Source: Flavobacteriaceae bacterium (GTDB lineage: Bacteria; Bacteroidota; Bacteroidia; Flavobacteriales; Flavobacteriaceae). Taken from it: a stretch of 64,000 bases of DNA. A model generated the notes under the pieces. That model saw nothing but the letters and a program-made list of their open reading frames with translations. It was not told where the DNA came from and did not search any database. This document shows, piece after piece, positions 3,619 to 11,180 of the stretch (position 1 is the stretch's first letter; the number at the start of each line of letters is the position of its first letter). A program made the translations under genes and the position numbers. Location of the stretch: contig JALSLK010000016.1 of the NCBI GenBank assembly GCA_026988355.1, positions 1-64,000 of the forward strand. Direction: 5' to 3'.

Positions 3619-6528
3619 ATGGGATATAAAAAACCGTCTTTTATTGAAAATGTCGCAGAAAAATTAGGAATCATTCCAAATCTGCACAAAGAAAAATACC
3701 AAGAATTCGATGGCGATATGCGTCAATTTTCTGATGAAGAAGTTGCCTCTATGTATGAAAATTTTCCTCCACCAGAAAAATGGGATAATTGGGTAGAATA
3801 CAATCCGAAAGTTTGGCCAAAAAAAGAAAAAACAACCTATCAAATTGTACCAACAACCTGTTTTAATTGTGAATCTGCTTGTGGATTAACCGCATTTATT
3901 AATAAAGAAACACAAGAAGTAGTTAAATTTGAAGGTAATCCACAGCATCCAGGATCTCGTGGAAGAAACTGCGCAAAAGGACCTGCAACAATAAATCAAG
4001 TTAATGATCCTGACCGTATCTTATTTCCATTAAAACGTACTGGAAAACGTGGCGAAGGACAATGGGAACGTGTTTCATGGGACGATGTTTTAGATACAAT
4101 TGCAGCAAGAATTCGCAAAGCAATAAAAGAAGATAGACGCAACGAAATTGCATACCAAGTTGGTCGTCCAGGCCACGAAAAATTTATGAATTGGGTTTTA
4201 CAAGGTTGGGGAATTGATGGACACAATTCACACACAAATATCTGTTCTTCGGGAGCGCGATTTGGATACAATATTTGGTATGGTTACGACAGACCATCAC
4301 CAGATCATGCAGAAGCTAAATTTATATTATTGATTTCTGCACACTTAGAATCAGGACATTATTTTAATCCACACGCACAACGTATCATCGAAGGAAAAAT
4401 GAAAGGTGCAAAATTAGCAACCATGGATCCTCGATTATCAAATACAGCATCCATGTCAGATTATTGGATGCCATCGTATCCAGGAACCGAAGCAGCAGTA
4501 TTATTAGCAATGGCATTAATTATTTTAGAAGAAGGTTTATATAACAGAGATTATCTAGAAAATTGGACGAACTGGCAAGAATACTTACAAGCAAAACACA
4601 GTGATAAAGAAGTTACTTTTGAAAATTATATTGCTGAAATGATTAATGAGTATAAAGAATTTACACCAGAATTCGCAGAAGCAGAATCTGGAGTAAAAGC
4701 AGAAATGATTCGTGAAATAGCACAAAAAATTGGTGAAGCAGGAACACGGTTTGCATCGCATAACTGGCGATCTGCAGGAGCATCTAATTTAGGCGGTTGG
4801 GCGGTTGCTAGATGCTTACATTTCTTAACCGTATTAACTGGAGCAGTTGGAGCAAAAGGTGGAACATCTCCAAATTCTTGGAACAAATTTTCGCCAACAC
4901 AACCAAATCCACCAGCCCCACAAAAAGTATGGAATGAATTACATTTCCCAAAAGAATATCCGCTAGCCTTTTTTGAAATGAGTCAATTATTACCTCATTT
5001 TCTAAAAGCAGGTCGTGGCTATATGGACATGTATTTTTCACGAGTATTTAATCCTGTTTGGACGTATCCAGACGGCTTTACTTGGATGGAAATGTTCCTT
5101 AGAGAAGATAAATTCGGAATGCATGCAGCACTAACACCAACTTGGAATGAAACCGCATTTTATGCCGATTTTGTATTGCCAATGGGATTAGCATCCGAAA
5201 GGCACGATATAAATAGTTATGCAACACATGGCGGAACTTGGATTGCCTTTAGACAACCTGTTTTAAAAGAAGCTGCAAGACGTAATGGCAAAGAATTTAC
5301 CTATACATACGAAGTAAACCCAGGCGAAGTTTGGGAAGAAGATGAATTTTGGATTGAATTATCGTGGAGAATAGATCCAGACGGATCTATGGGAATTAGA
5401 AAAACATTCGAATCGCCTTATAGAAAAGGAGAAAAAATTACCGTTGACGAATACTACCAATACATTTTTGAACGTGTTGAAGGTTTAACAGAAACTGCAA
5501 AGAAAGATGGATTTACAGGTCAATTTGCAGAGTTAAACTACATGAAAAAATACGGTGCATACGAAATTGAAAAAGGAGAATCGTATCATAAAAACGAAAC
5601 CCCTTTAACCAAAGAACAACTAAAAGATACAGAAGTAGATAAAGTTACCAATGTAATTTCTAAAAACGGAAAGAAAATTGGTGTTATGGTTAACAATAAA
5701 GCAGTAGTTGGTTTTCCAACACCATCTCGTAAAAACGAATTTTATTCGCAAACTATGGTCGATTGGAAATGGCCAGAATATGCAACACCAAGATATATAA
5801 AATCACACATTCATTTAGATGCATTAGACAAATCTAAAGGAGAATATGTTTTAGTACCTACTTTTAGATTACCAACATTAATTCACTCACGCTCTGGTAA
5901 TGCCAAATGGTTAGTAGAAATCTCCAATAGAAATCCGATATGGATGCATCCAGACGATGCTGCAAAATGGGGTTTTAAAACTGGCGATTTAGTAAAAATG
6001 AATACAGATATTGGGTTTTTTATCGATAAAGTTTGGGTAACACAATCTATGAAACCAGGCGTTGTAGCTTGTTCACATCATATTGGTCGTTGGAAAAAAC
6101 CACAAGATCAAGATGGTAATCGTTGGGCAGTTAATACTGTAGATATCTCTAATAATGGAAAAGGTGTCTGGAAAATGAGTACCATTTCTGGGATTAAACC
6201 ATTTGATTCGAAAGATAAAGATTCGAAACGTATTTTCTGGAAAGATGGTGGTGTACATCAAAACATAACACATGCAGTACATCCAGATCCAATTAGTGGT
6301 ATGCATTGTTGGCATCAAAGAGTACGAATAGAAAAACCAGCTCCAGGCGAAAAATACGGAGATATTGCCGTAGATACCAATAAATCTCACGAAGTGTTTA
6401 AAGAATGGTTAGCAATGACTAGACCTGCGCCAGGACCAAATGGAGAACGAAGACCACTTTGGTTTAAACGTGCCTTTACACCAGATAAAACTGTAGGAGG
6501 AGCCTATTATATTACAGATAAAGACTAA
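3619..6528 (+). CDS. Molybdopterin (DMSO reductase family) oxidoreductase, SoeA/PsrA-like catalytic subunit
   Basis: 969 aa. A [4Fe-4S] motif C81-x2-C84-x3-C88-x29-C118 is followed by the Mo-bisPGD domains and a C-terminal dinucleotide-binding domain (about 770-930). NICSSGARFGY places Cys209 where the family puts the molybdenum ligand, suggesting Cys ligation as in polysulfide, thiosulfate or sulfite enzymes. No twin-arginine or Sec signal is visible, and length and lack of a leader resemble cytoplasmic SoeA sulfite dehydrogenases. Periplasmic Psr/Phs, Ttr and arsenate reductases carry a Tat leader. It forms an operon with the ferredoxin/NrfD fusion. The substrate is not proven; sulfite oxidation or sulfur-compound reduction are the leading options. 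Confidence 0.85.
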   Translation: MGYKKPSFIENVAEKLGIIPNLHKEKYQEFDGDMRQFSDEEVASMYENFPPPEKWDNWVEYNPKVWPKKEKTTYQIVPTTCFNCESACGLTAFINKETQEVVKFEGNPQHPGSRGRNCAKGPATINQVNDPDRILFPLKRTGKRGEGQWERVSWDDVLDTIAARIRKAIKEDRRNEIAYQVGRPGHEKFMNWVLQGWGIDGHNSHTNICSSGARFGYNIWYGYDRPSPDHAEAKFILLISAHLESGHYFNPHAQRIIEGKMKGAKLATMDPRLSNTASMSDYWMPSYPGTEAAVLLAMALIILEEGLYNRDYLENWTNWQEYLQAKHSDKEVTFENYIAEMINEYKEFTPEFAEAESGVKAEMIREIAQKIGEAGTRFASHNWRSAGASNLGGWAVARCLHFLTVLTGAVGAKGGTSPNSWNKFSPTQPNPPAPQKVWNELHFPKEYPLAFFEMSQLLPHFLKAGRGYMDMYFSRVFNPVWTYPDGFTWMEMFLREDKFGMHAALTPTWNETAFYADFVLPMGLASERHDINSYATHGGTWIAFRQPVLKEAARRNGKEFTYTYEVNPGEVWEEDEFWIELSWRIDPDGSMGIRKTFESPYRKGEKITVDEYYQYIFERVEGLTETAKKDGFTGQFAELNYMKKYGAYEIEKGESYHKNETPLTKEQLKDTEVDKVTNVISKNGKKIGVMVNNKAVVGFPTPSRKNEFYSQTMVDWKWPEYATPRYIKSHIHLDALDKSKGEYVLVPTFRLPTLIHSRSGNAKWLVEISNRNPIWMHPDDAAKWGFKTGDLVKMNTDIGFFIDKVWVTQSMKPGVVACSHHIGRWKKPQDQDGNRWAVNTVDISNNGKGVWKMSTISGIKPFDSKDKDSKRIFWKDGGVHQNITHAVHPDPISGMHCWHQRVRIEKPAPGEKYGDIAVDTNKSHEVFKEWLAMTRPAPGPNGERRPLWFKRAFTPDKTVGGAYYITDKD

Positions 6529-6541
6529 CTTTTATACTAGT

Positions 6542-6568
6542 GATACGATGATTCCAAATCATCGTATC
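6542..6568 (+). terminator. Hairpin after the molybdoenzyme operon
   Basis: GATACGATGATT / AATCATCGTATC, a 12-bp perfect stem with a 3-nt loop, 13 nt after the stop. There is no long T-tract, so it may work as a 3'-end stabiliser or weak terminator. Confidence 0.6.
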
Positions 6569-6616
6569 GCTCTAGTACAATTAAAATAATTTATGTATTT
6601 TTGAGTAAAAAATAAA

Positions 6617-9600
6617 ATGCAATTTGAAAAAGGCTACTTATATCACATTTACAATCAAGGTAATAATCAAAGGAAAATTTTCTTTAAACAAGAAAATTAT
6701 ATCTTCTTTCTAGAAAAATTAAAAAAATACATTTCGCCTTATGCAGATATTATTGCTTGGTGCTTAATGCCAAATCATTTTCATTTAATGGTTTTAGTTA
6801 AGGAAGAGGAATTACCAAATAAAGAAACTCACACCGTGACTCAAAGTCACGGTGTGAGTAAAACTTTAAAAATAAATGATTCTATTGGAATCATGTTGCG
6901 CTCTTACACAAGAGCAATAAACAAACAAGAAAATTTTAGCGGTAAATTATTTAGAGAGAAAACCAAAGCAGAATGTATAAATTGTTTCAATGGAAATACA
7001 CCTTCTTTTATTAGTAATAAAATGACTTCAATAAATTTGATCTCAGAAAAACAATATTCACAAGTTTGTTTTGATTATATTCATCAAAATCCTGTAAAAG
7101 CAGGAATGGTTAAAACAGCTATTGAGTACGAGTATTCATCAGCAAAAGATTATGCAAATTTGCGAAATAATAAATTGATAAATAAAACAATTGCTTTGGA
7201 ATATGTTGATTGTCAAAATACTCACACCGTGACTCAAAGTCACGGTGTGAGTATGACTCTTAAAAACCCCGAACTAGAACTAGCCTTAAATTTCGTAGAA
7301 AAAACCGATAGAAATATCTTTTTAACAGGAAAAGCTGGTACTGGAAAAACAACATTTCTACATCAAATAAAAAAAGAATCACTAAAAAGATTAGTAGTCG
7401 TTGCACCAACAGGCGTTGCAGCTATCAATGCAAAAGGTGTTACTATACACTCCTTTTTTCAAATGCCTTTTGGACCAATTATTCCAGGTGTAGCATCTAA
7501 AAAATCAAAATTTAAGTTTAATAAAACTAAAATTGACATCATTAGATCCTTAGATTTATTAATTATCGATGAAATTAGTATGGTACGTGCCGACTTACTC
7601 GATGGAATCGATCAAGTTTTAAGGCGCTATAAAAATAGACTGAAAGTATTTGGAGGTGTGCAAGTATTGATGATTGGCGATTTACAACAACTTTCTCCCG
7701 TTGTAAAACCGTATGAATGGGAATTACTTAAACCTCATTATAAAACTTCTTTCTTTTTTAGTAGTCATGCATTCCAGAAATCCAATACAATTAGTATTGA
7801 ACTAAAACATATATACAGACAGGATAATGAAGCGTTTATTTCTATTTTAAATGAAATTCGACATAACAAACTAAGCCTAAATTCCGCAAAAATTTTAAAT
7901 GGTAGATACCAACCTAAATTTACTCCAACAAAAGAAGATGGTTATATAACATTAACAACGCATAATAATAGAGCAAATACTATTAATGAATTAGAATTAA
8001 ATAAATTACATTCAAAAAAACATTTTTATACAGCAGTAATCAAAGGAAAATTTAATGAATATGCCTATCCAACAAAAGAAAAATTAGAATTAAAAGTTGG
8101 TGCACAAGTTATGTTTATCAAAAATGATAGCAGTCTAGACAAGCAATACTATAATGGAAAAATAGGTACTATTACCTATCTAGATAAAGATACTGTAACC
8201 ATACAATGTCCAGAAGATACATACGAAATCGAAACAACTACAGAAATTTGGGAAAATATAAGCTATTCAATACACGAAGAAACTAAAGAAATATCCGAAA
8301 ATATTGCTGGTTCATTTACACAAATTCCATTGCGTTTGGCTTGGGCAATTACAATTCATAAAAGCCAAGGATTAACTTTTGAAAAAGCAATAATTGATGC
8401 AGAAGCATCTTTTGCACACGGACAAACTTACGTCGCATTAAGTAGATGTAAATCCTTAGAAGGTATTATCTTAAAAACCCAAATTAAAGAACATAGCATT
8501 ATTAATGATAATCGAGTTACTTCATTTACCGAAAATGTTGCTAAAAATTTACCAACAGAAATAGATTTAAATAATTCACAAAAAAAATACCAATTAAATT
8601 TAATCGAAGATTTATTTAATTATAATGCATTTTTATATCCAATTAGAAGATTGATGGATATTTATTACCAAAACAAAACTTCATTTAAAGGAAATATCAT
8701 TACACCTTTAGAAATTATAAAAGACAACGGTATTGTTCCTTTATTACGGATAAGCACTAGTTTTAAAAAACAATTGACAGCTTTAAGTTTAGATGTAATA
8801 AATCTTGAAAAAGATAATATCATCCAAGATCGTATAATAAAAGCGATAAATTATTTTATAGAAAATACAAATAAATTTATTAAAAAACCGTTTAAAACGC
8901 TTACCTTCTCTACTGAAAACAAAGCTGTAAAAAAAGATTTTACCAAACAATTAGATAATTTAGAAGATGAAATAAATGTAAAATTATTCTGTTTAGAAGC
9001 TTTAATTAATGGATTTAGCATTTCTAAATATTTAGATATAAGAGCCAATGCAGTTTTAGAAAAATCAAAAAAAACAATTTCTAAAACCCATAAAGAAAGA
9101 GTAAATATTACTACAACAGAACATCCAAAGCTTTTTGAACAATTACGTGAATTAAGAAATATGCTTGCAGAATCTGAAGATTTAAATCACTACCAAATTT
9201 TCACACAAGCATCCTTATTTGAAATGTGTGAGTATTTTCCTATAAATAATAACCAATTAAATGCAATAAATGGCATGGGAAAAATAAGAGTGCAAAAATA
9301 TGGTACAGAAATTACGAATATAATACAGAATTATATTTCTGAAAACAAGCTAGATTCTAAAGAAATAAAGTTTATTGAAGTCGAAAAAAAATCAAAAAAT
9401 CCAAAAATTAACACAAAACAGACATCCTTAGAATTGTTTAAAACAGGAAAAACAATATTAGAAATTGCTACAGAAAGAGGCTTAGCAAAATCGACAATTG
9501 AAAGTCATCTAGCGCATTTTATTCCAACTGGAGAAATAAAAATTACCGATTTAATGACAATAAATAAATATAAAGAACTTAAAAAAATAATGAAGTCTAT

Positions 9601-9694
9601 TAAATACACCAGCTTTTCTGAATTAAAAAATAAGATTGATACTAAATTTACATATCCAGAAATTAGACTAATAGCATCCGAATTAGAAAAATAA
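6617..9694 (+). CDS. REP-associated tyrosine transposase fused to a Pif1-like helicase (HRDC and HTH C-terminus)
   Basis: One uninterrupted 1025-codon frame. Residues 1-201 are a complete Y1/HUH transposase of the IS200-like RAYT family: H54 and H56 in MPNHFHLMV, and the probable catalytic Y154 in DYIHQNPVKAG. Residues 213-1025 are a full-length Pif1/RecD-type superfamily 1B helicase: Walker A GKAGTGKTT at 238-246, Walker B IIDEIS at 316-321, GDLQQLSP, IHKSQGLTF and YVALSRCKSLEG. It continues into an HRDC-like segment (NAINGMGKIRVQKYG) and a C-terminal helix-turn-helix. An identical 11-residue insert, THTVTQSHGVS, occurs at 71-81 and 202-212; the second is exactly at the domain junction. The helicase could also initiate at Met213 (7253). 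Whether one or two proteins are made cannot be seen. Confidence 0.85.
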   Translation: MQFEKGYLYHIYNQGNNQRKIFFKQENYIFFLEKLKKYISPYADIIAWCLMPNHFHLMVLVKEEELPNKETHTVTQSHGVSKTLKINDSIGIMLRSYTRAINKQENFSGKLFREKTKAECINCFNGNTPSFISNKMTSINLISEKQYSQVCFDYIHQNPVKAGMVKTAIEYEYSSAKDYANLRNNKLINKTIALEYVDCQNTHTVTQSHGVSMTLKNPELELALNFVEKTDRNIFLTGKAGTGKTTFLHQIKKESLKRLVVVAPTGVAAINAKGVTIHSFFQMPFGPIIPGVASKKSKFKFNKTKIDIIRSLDLLIIDEISMVRADLLDGIDQVLRRYKNRLKVFGGVQVLMIGDLQQLSPVVKPYEWELLKPHYKTSFFFSSHAFQKSNTISIELKHIYRQDNEAFISILNEIRHNKLSLNSAKILNGRYQPKFTPTKEDGYITLTTHNNRANTINELELNKLHSKKHFYTAVIKGKFNEYAYPTKEKLELKVGAQVMFIKNDSSLDKQYYNGKIGTITYLDKDTVTIQCPEDTYEIETTTEIWENISYSIHEETKEISENIAGSFTQIPLRLAWAITIHKSQGLTFEKAIIDAEASFAHGQTYVALSRCKSLEGIILKTQIKEHSIINDNRVTSFTENVAKNLPTEIDLNNSQKKYQLNLIEDLFNYNAFLYPIRRLMDIYYQNKTSFKGNIITPLEIIKDNGIVPLLRISTSFKKQLTALSLDVINLEKDNIIQDRIIKAINYFIENTNKFIKKPFKTLTFSTENKAVKKDFTKQLDNLEDEINVKLFCLEALINGFSISKYLDIRANAVLEKSKKTISKTHKERVNITTTEHPKLFEQLRELRNMLAESEDLNHYQIFTQASLFEMCEYFPINNNQLNAINGMGKIRVQKYGTEITNIIQNYISENKLDSKEIKFIEVEKKSKNPKINTKQTSLELFKTGKTILEIATERGLAKSTIESHLAHFIPTGEIKITDLMTINKYKELKKIMKSIKYTSFSELKNKIDTKFTYPEIRLIASELEK
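6827..6859 (+). repeat. 33-nt in-frame palindrome, copy 1 (inside the transposase domain)
   Basis: Perfect 15-bp arms, ACTCACACCGTGACT and its reverse complement, with loop CAA. It is 33 nt long, starts on a codon boundary (codon 71), and so adds exactly 11 residues without shifting the frame. It lies between the HUH strand and the following helix. Confidence 0.95.
7220..7252 (+). repeat. 33-nt in-frame palindrome, copy 2 (transposase/helicase junction)
   Basis: Identical to the copy at 6827-6859, again on a codon boundary (codon 202), ending one base before an in-frame ATG at 7253. The next ~15 nt also resemble each other in the two copies (encoding K/M-T-L-K), so the repeated unit may extend past the palindrome. 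Confidence 0.95.
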
Positions 9695-9758: not shown

Positions 9759-11180
9759 ATGCCTAGACTAGTTGGTAGAAATCAAGAAAAAAAACTATTA
9801 AATGATGCATTAAATAGTAATAAATCGGAACTCATTGCAATTTACGGTAGACGAAGAGTAGGTAAGACTTTTTTAGTAAACCAAGTTTATAAAAATCGTA
9901 TTATTTTCTCATTTTCTGGACTAATAAATACAACCCTAAAAACACAATTAGAAAATTTTCATTTACTACTTAGTCAAAAAAAGAATAAACTACAAAAGCC
10001 AAAAAATTGGATTGTTGCTTTTTACAACTTACAAGAATACATTACAAAAATAAAATCGACAAAAAAGAAAGTTATATTTATTGACGAATTTCCTTGGCTA
10101 GATAGTAGAAAATCTAATTTTTTAACAGCATTCGACAATTTTTGGAACAATTACGCATCCAAAAGAGAGGATCTGGTTGTTATAATTTGTGGATCAGCGG
10201 CATCTTATATGATTAAAAATATTATACGAAGCAAAGGTGGTTTACACAATCGAATTACCAATAAAATAAATTTAAAACCTTTTAACCTCTACGAAACCGA
10301 ATTACTATTAAAAAAGAACAAAGTCAATTTAAGTCGTTATGATATTTTGCAATTGTATATGTGCTTTGGAGGAATTCCGCATTACTTAGAACGTATAAAC
10401 CCTGGAGAAAGTGTCGTTAGCATCATCAATAAACTATGTTTTGAAAAAGATGCTTTTTTACAAAATGAATTTGACAATATATTTTACTCCCTATTTGATA
10501 ACGCAAATAATCATATTACTATAATTACCGTTTTGTCTAAAGTAAAAAAAGGACTTACTAGAAAAGAAATTATTACAAAAAGTAAGTTAAAATCTGGAGG
10601 AGCGATAACCAATACTCTTAATGAACTAATAGCCTCTGGATTTCTAGAAAAACAGATTCCATTTAGTGGAAGGAAAAGTTCTTTGTACAGATTAACGGAC
10701 GAATACACCTTATTTTATCTTAAATTTATAAAAAATCAATCTCAAAATAGCACAAATACTTGGCAAACAATGTATTCTAAAAATTCATATAAAATTTGGT
10801 CAGGATTCAGTTTTGAAAATATTTGTTTAAAACACATAAATCAGATAAAAGAAGGTTTAAAAATAACTGGTATCTATACAAAAACTGGTAGTTGGGTTGA
10901 AAAAAATGAAGAGAAAGGAACACAAATAGATTTATTAATCGATAGAGCAGATAATACCATAAATTTATGTGAAATAAAATTTTACAATAGTGAATTTACT
11001 CTAACAAAATCTTATGTAGATATCTTAAGAAATAAAATTTCGGTTTTTAAAGAAAAAACCAAAACTAAAAAAAATATTTTTACAACTTTGATAACAACTT
11101 ATGGTATAAAAATCAATAAATACAGTACACAATACATCCAAAATGAATTATTAATCGATGATTTATTTATAGATGTATAA
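9759..11180 (+). CDS. AAA+ ATPase with winged helix and DUF234/PD-(D/E)XK-like C-terminus
   Basis: 473 aa. The N-terminus matches the ATPase_2 group: VGR at 5-7, Walker A GRRRVGKT at 30-37, and Walker B IFIDEFPWLD near residue 110. The middle contains a winged-helix-like region (about 260-310). The C-terminal part holds GTQIDLLIDRADNT followed by LCEIKF, the D...ExK spacing of restriction-like nuclease folds found at the end of DUF234-type ATPases. These single-gene ATPases are patchily distributed and often lie in accessory regions; their cell function is not established. The gene is monocistronic and framed by related hairpins at 9701-9748 and 11183-11230, which hints at a cassette. Confidence 0.8.
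   Translation: MPRLVGRNQEKKLLNDALNSNKSELIAIYGRRRVGKTFLVNQVYKNRIIFSFSGLINTTLKTQLENFHLLLSQKKNKLQKPKNWIVAFYNLQEYITKIKSTKKKVIFIDEFPWLDSRKSNFLTAFDNFWNNYASKREDLVVIICGSAASYMIKNIIRSKGGLHNRITNKINLKPFNLYETELLLKKNKVNLSRYDILQLYMCFGGIPHYLERINPGESVVSIINKLCFEKDAFLQNEFDNIFYSLFDNANNHITIITVLSKVKKGLTRKEIITKSKLKSGGAITNTLNELIASGFLEKQIPFSGRKSSLYRLTDEYTLFYLKFIKNQSQNSTNTWQTMYSKNSYKIWSGFSFENICLKHINQIKEGLKITGIYTKTGSWVEKNEEKGTQIDLLIDRADNTINLCEIKFYNSEFTLTKSYVDILRNKISVFKEKTKTKKNIFTTLITTYGIKINKYSTQYIQNELLIDDLFIDV

Follow-up and report, generated by a model that had tools for sequence, protein, structure and literature searches.

The window analysed here, a 64,000-nucleotide stretch of a Flavobacteriaceae genome, carries an open reading frame that fuses a RAYT (TnpAREP) transposase to a helicase and contains two identical 33-nt palindromes. 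We consider it very probable that these palindromes are two copies of a REP-like element likely mobilised by the RAYT of the same gene, of which the first (site 1) is a tolerated insertion into the transposase domain and the second (site 2) is a 3' REP that was turned into a linker. The features on which this reading is based are the following.

6539..6571, + strand: 33-nt palindrome of 15-3-15 build located just 5' of the RAYT gene and belonging to a different sequence family, AGTGATACGATGATT-CCA-AATCATCGTATCGCT.
6617..9694, + strand: RAYT (TnpAREP)-helicase fusion gene of 1025 aa, composed of a Y1-HuH transposase, a PIF1/RecD2-like helicase, HRDC and HTH_40; the same fused ORF is found in three independent assemblies (G203, G200 and G205/L077).
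6617..7219, + strand: RAYT domain, residues 1-201, with the HuH motif NHFH (53-56) and the Tyr motif YIHQNP (154-159) both intact; supported by NF047646, the Foldseek match to 4ER8 and dN/dS.
6827..6859, + strand: copy 1 of the REP-like palindrome (site 1), residues 71-81, between the HuH and Tyr motifs; coinciding exactly with AlphaFold2 pLDDT <50.
7220..7252, + strand: copy 2 of the REP-like palindrome (site 2), residues 202-212, the translated linker between RAYT and helicase; directly abutting the helicase start KNPELEL in L077.
7253..9694, + strand: helicase part (PIF1-like, HRDC, HTH_40) with the Walker A motif GKAGTGKT; unfused orthologs occur in G204/L081, G202/L038 and L078-L156.

Hereafter G000 denotes the genome under study (3.14 Mb, 94% complete), G203 its sister species and G200 a genus-mate. 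Both palindromes have the sequence ACTCACACCGTGACT-CAA-AGTCACGGTGTGAGT, with a perfect 15-bp stem and a CAA loop; both lie in phase 0 of the ORF and encode the peptide THTVTQSHGVS, and in copy 2 the stem extends to 17 bp (7218-7254). The coordinates and frame given in an earlier sequence-only reading are thereby confirmed, as is its placement of one copy within the transposase domain and of the other at the helicase junction. The same reading treated the alignment of the palindromes to codon boundaries as a special property. However, any insertion phase keeps the frame because 33 is a multiple of three; the 33-mer is stop-free in two of its three phases, and the same type of palindrome is read in phase 2 in other RAYT genes, which rules out a specially codon-aligned element.

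The N-terminal domain belongs to the Y1-HuH RAYT/TnpAREP proteins by its fold and by its combination of HuH with a single Tyr motif. It matches the NF047646 profile with an E value of 2.4e-14, yet under the curated cut-off of this family. The only PDB match of the RAYT profile search, 4ER8, is also the best Foldseek match of the domain (E 2.6e-7); it is the E. coli TnpAREP with a REP hairpin. In the RAYT alignment NHFH and Y154 are invariant or nearly so, and purifying selection acts on the RAYT part (dN/dS 0.10-0.25 in all pairwise comparisons made) as well as on the helicase part (0.14-0.21). The AlphaFold2 model has its lowest confidence at residues 71-81, 134-141 and 201-212, with pLDDT falling below 50 exactly at site 1 and also within the third of these segments, which holds site 2.

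Further copies of the element were revealed by genome-wide pattern searches allowing up to 3 mismatches: the 33-mer occurs 3 times in G000 (once outside the fused gene), 30 times in G203, 4 times in G205 and once in G201. These copies bear out the idea of the sequence-only reading that the palindrome is a repeat of the RAYT-linked kind. At the same threshold none was found in G202, G204 and G403, which do not have this RAYT, or in G200, where the fused gene holds other palindromes; G201, also without this RAYT, has only a single shared copy. The third copy of G000 is intergenic, has another loop, precedes a gene for a heavy-metal P-type ATPase by 14 nt and is common to G201 and G203. Since it is the sole outside copy in G000, current mobility of the element in this species is doubtful.

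The G203 genome is more informative on dispersal. Just 2 of its 30 copies lie in a gene body, both of them in the orthologous RAYT-helicase gene, which also has a REP upstream of RAYT and another after the helicase; the others all lie in AT-rich DNA between genes, each as an exact 33-nt unit, and have no flanking sequence in common. Variants among the G203 copies show 9 paired changes in both arms vs 1.9 expected with independent arms. At the sites that could be aligned, the G203 copies are absent from the orthologous regions of G000, G201 and G204, although the species share only ~75-80% nucleotide identity and their intergenic DNA is not alignable base by base, which leaves exact empty sites undefined. 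Thus, a RAYT gene flanked by REP palindromes that are also dispersed in the genome is observed in G203, and G000 has one dispersed copy only. Dispersal, turnover and linkage to RAYT characterise the 33-mer as a small REP-like element of the RAYT-linked kind. We use the term “REP-like” because the element lacks the GT[AG]G foot that classical REPs have, and no conserved foot or flank was found in the 30 G203 copies. Neither G203 nor G000 has gene-body copies outside the RAYT-helicase gene, and on this ground we reject a protein-coding palindromic element of the Rickettsia kind, with which the 33-mer had been compared.

The association of such palindromes with RAYT genes is general in Flavobacteriaceae. 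We analysed 33 RAYT ORFs, most of which represent separate genera of this family, with 350 nt on each side, defining a palindrome as a 15-bp stem with at most 2 mismatches and a 3-nt loop, and found 55 palindromes of the 15-3-15 build vs 0.35 in shuffles. In-frame palindromes between HuH and Tyr are present in other genera as well (L009, L010, L014 and L016). In RAYTs lacking an internal palindrome HuH and Tyr are mostly 62-72 residues apart, compared with 86-101 in those that carry one; the exceptions are L006 and L008 (79 residues), which may contain decayed inserts, and the divergent L032 (86 residues without a palindrome). RAYTs without any internal palindrome are common, and many have flanking copies only. 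In addition, each 15-nt arm is itself near-palindromic (mean 5.0 of 7 self-pairs vs 1.8 in shuffles; 7 arm groups; L005-L036, L197-L226), so that the element represents a palindrome of palindromes.

Presence, replacement and decay of the insert are all visible within one genus. The fused gene is present in G000, G203, G200 and G205/L077, and a comparison of these relatives for the 11-residue insert, as the sequence-only reading had proposed, revealed sequence variation. At site 1 the palindrome has decayed in L077 (2 stem mismatches) and is replaced in G200 by a different one, AGTGAGGGTTTCACT-CCA-AGTGAAGCCCTCACT, whose family is also found in the 5' flank of the G200 gene and elsewhere in that genome. 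At site 2 the loop is reversed in G203 (TTG for CAA), L077 has one mismatch, and G200 holds a decayed copy of another family with 3 stem mismatches.

These data bear directly on the question of whether selection retains the inserts for their peptide, THTVTQSHGVS, the palindrome being incidental. In G000 both sites encode this one peptide, and in G203 nearly so, as selection at the protein level would predict. However, site 1 of G200 encodes SEGFTPSEALT and its site 2 holds a decayed, unrelated sequence, the peptides of other RAYTs differ and are read in other phases, and the low-confidence segments of the AlphaFold2 model (pLDDT <50) fall exactly on residues 71-81 and within 201-212. We regard this explanation as extremely improbable, and the palindrome replacement in G200 largely refutes it. 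Since the two sites hold different palindromes in the relatives, the amino acids are not the conserved thing; a permissive place repeatedly holds some 33-nt palindrome, with neither the peptide nor the exact DNA being kept.

Another explanation is a putative self-recognition or autoregulation, in which the RAYT product would bind the hairpins of the gene or mRNA that encodes it, limiting its own synthesis or seeding the spread of the element, and the hairpins would be retained for this purpose. The hairpins are indeed strong: the 33-mer folds at -25.6 kcal/mol as RNA (z -7.8; none of 200 shuffles equals it) and at -17.3 kcal/mol as single-stranded DNA (z -8.4). Moreover, the RAYT fold is nearest to a structure with a bound REP hairpin, and site 1 shows no differences in 33 nt between G000 and G203, the remaining RAYT sequence differing by 11.6%. 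Nevertheless, difference-free 33-nt windows occur elsewhere in the gene too, many RAYTs are flanked by palindromes but have none inside, and the orthologs show decay of internal copies, as at site 1 of L077 and site 2 of G200. Self-recognition is therefore not a general requirement, and we consider it an unlikely reason for the presence of the hairpins.

Two side observations concern the RAYT region in the relatives. In L077 a third place in the RAYT domain, at ~3815-3850 (fused-protein residues 125-136), is occupied by a decayed in-frame REP of another family, CTAAGTCAGGGTTTTACTTGGAGTGAAGCCATGACT, around the low-confidence segment 134-141. Upstream of the G200 RAYT (L036, ~940-1500) there are duplicated fragments of the RAYT gene, including the internal palindrome, with the intact fused gene downstream.

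The origin of site 2 becomes apparent when the fused gene is compared with the unfused helicase. In G204 the helicase gene has no RAYT and starts with ATG AAA AAT CCA GAA (ATGAAAAATCCAGAA), while in L077 the palindrome runs straight into AAA AAC CCA GAA, i.e., the helicase start, and the helicase ATG is missing in both G203 and L077. The SulP gene downstream of the helicase is common to G204, G203 and L077. Unfused helicase genes are widespread, L077 being the only fused one among the best 80 named loci. As far as can be read from these junctions, site 2 represents the 3' REP of RAYT, read in frame and joining RAYT to a host helicase. An assembly artefact is ruled out by the presence of the fusion in four independent assemblies. 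The fused ORF is presumably made as one protein, and the helicase may also be initiated internally, at the ATG at 7253 or at a GTG inside the palindrome. A partial copy of the 6539-6571 palindrome was noticed within the fusion junction of G200 (L036).

The same type of junction occurs with a different host gene. In about 15 flavobacterial genomes (L197-L217; G036, G266, G154, G254, G390, G140 and others) RAYT forms an in-frame fusion with coproporphyrinogen III oxidase (HemF); this figure is a count of ORFs, not of independent fusion events. PF01797 and PF01218 were found within one ORF in all four fusions examined. A translated palindrome is located at the junction in 13 of the 15 (up to 4 mismatches; 6 are perfect), giving a linker peptide such as DLSGFENLTGL, and the start Met of HemF is missing in 10 of the 15. 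Intermediates are also available, in which RAYT and hemF adjoin as separate ORFs, often with palindromes between them.

One might suppose that the helicase fusion is kept because a PIF1-like helicase and a HuH transposase would work better when coupled. The Helitron Rep-Hel and conjugative relaxase-helicases likewise combine, within a single protein, a HuH nuclease with an SF1B/PIF1-like helicase behind it. Our fusion has this domain order, but its HuH domain is of the Y1 RAYT type, and the joining through a REP was apparently a recent event confined to one small clade. The motifs are intact and purifying selection acts in both domains, the fusion is kept in four genomes, and in a profile search the helicase part matches the Ti-type TraA relaxase. 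However, RAYT is likewise fused to HemF, for which a role on DNA is not plausible, and the unfused helicase is widespread. The HemF parallel suggests that the fusion may reflect gene position rather than being formed for a function, which weakens the coupled HuH-helicase reading; we consider this reading improbable.

The history that we prefer, with the palindromes as REP-like copies of the gene's own RAYT, may be outlined as follows. The RAYT encoded by the gene is the likely mobiliser of the 33-nt element: its Y1-HuH transposase would cut and join single-stranded REP hairpins as the known TnpAREP does, and we infer from this analogy that this RAYT moves this REP. The single outside copy in G000, the different family of its 5' flanking palindrome and the missing GT[AG]G foot speak against this reading. 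At site 1 a REP would have inserted into the loop between HuH and Tyr; this was probably tolerated, as the 33 nt introduce 11 residues and no stop into a permissive loop. Site 2 would correspond to the REP usually found on the 3' side of a RAYT gene. Most likely, RAYT with its REPs came to sit directly upstream of the helicase gene and, after loss or bypass of the RAYT stop, the frame, open throughout the REP, connected the two coding regions, so that the palindrome may now serve as a translated linker; this order of events is presumed from the present arrangement. A bolder extension is that RAYT-REP modules have repeatedly acted as a device for gene fusion in Flavobacteriaceae, with the 3' REP as a stop-free 33-nt linker through which RAYT becomes the N-terminal domain of any downstream gene, and that the helicase case is a new HuH-PIF1 enzyme, convergent with the Helitron Rep-Hel domain order and acting on REP hairpins. 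We consider this extension speculative and rather unlikely.

The accessible parts of the REP literature allow us to place the element among the described systems. In-frame REPs inside the gene, generally between HuH and Tyr, were described for TnpAREP subclass 2.4 by Quentin et al. 2018 (PMC6006769), who set aside unusually long fusion proteins, and many intragenic REPs were catalogued by De Nocera et al. 2013 (PMC3733652). Therefore, the claim that palindromes are read in frame inside a RAYT gene stands for our gene, but its principle had already been published for subclass 2.4 (PMC6006769). In-frame palindromes between HuH and Tyr (here residues 71-81, between 53-56 and 154), flanking copies and the occurrence in Bacteroidetes are shared with this subclass. 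Nevertheless, we do not assign the gene to it because the Tyr motif differs (YIxNNP with a W(Q) motif there, YIHQNP with GKLFREK here) and the GT[AG]G foot is absent; a further difference is the second in-frame copy joining RAYT to a host helicase.

With subclass 2.6, as presented in the available text of the same paper (PMC6006769), the gene shares its occurrence in Bacteroidetes, the Tyr motif YIH[QN]NP and atypical flanking structures with copies elsewhere, but the HuH motif is NH[LIV]H there and NHFH here, and internal REPs are not reported for 2.6 in that text. The intragenic REPs (PMC3733652, as far as accessible) and the Rickettsia palindromic elements are likewise short palindromes read in frame inside protein genes; those occur in many unrelated genes, while gene-body copies of ours were seen in the RAYT gene only. 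We found no report of a RAYT-helicase or RAYT-HemF fusion via a REP in the open-licence literature, including the accessible parts of the REP papers, and the REP-linked fusion to the helicase together with the HemF parallel seems to be previously undescribed.

The system offers a clear natural example of a tiny palindromic repeat becoming part of proteins. Host genes, including that for an enzyme of heme synthesis, are encoded here in fusion with a domesticated transposase, the transposase's own repeat forming the joint. The RAYT-REP coupling can be tested in culturable flavobacteria, and the fusions are directly detectable by proteomics. Finally, an ATPase_2/DUF234 gene lies between the helicase and SulP at window positions 9759-11180; it is missing from that place in G203, L077 and G204 and is therefore probably a local insertion.
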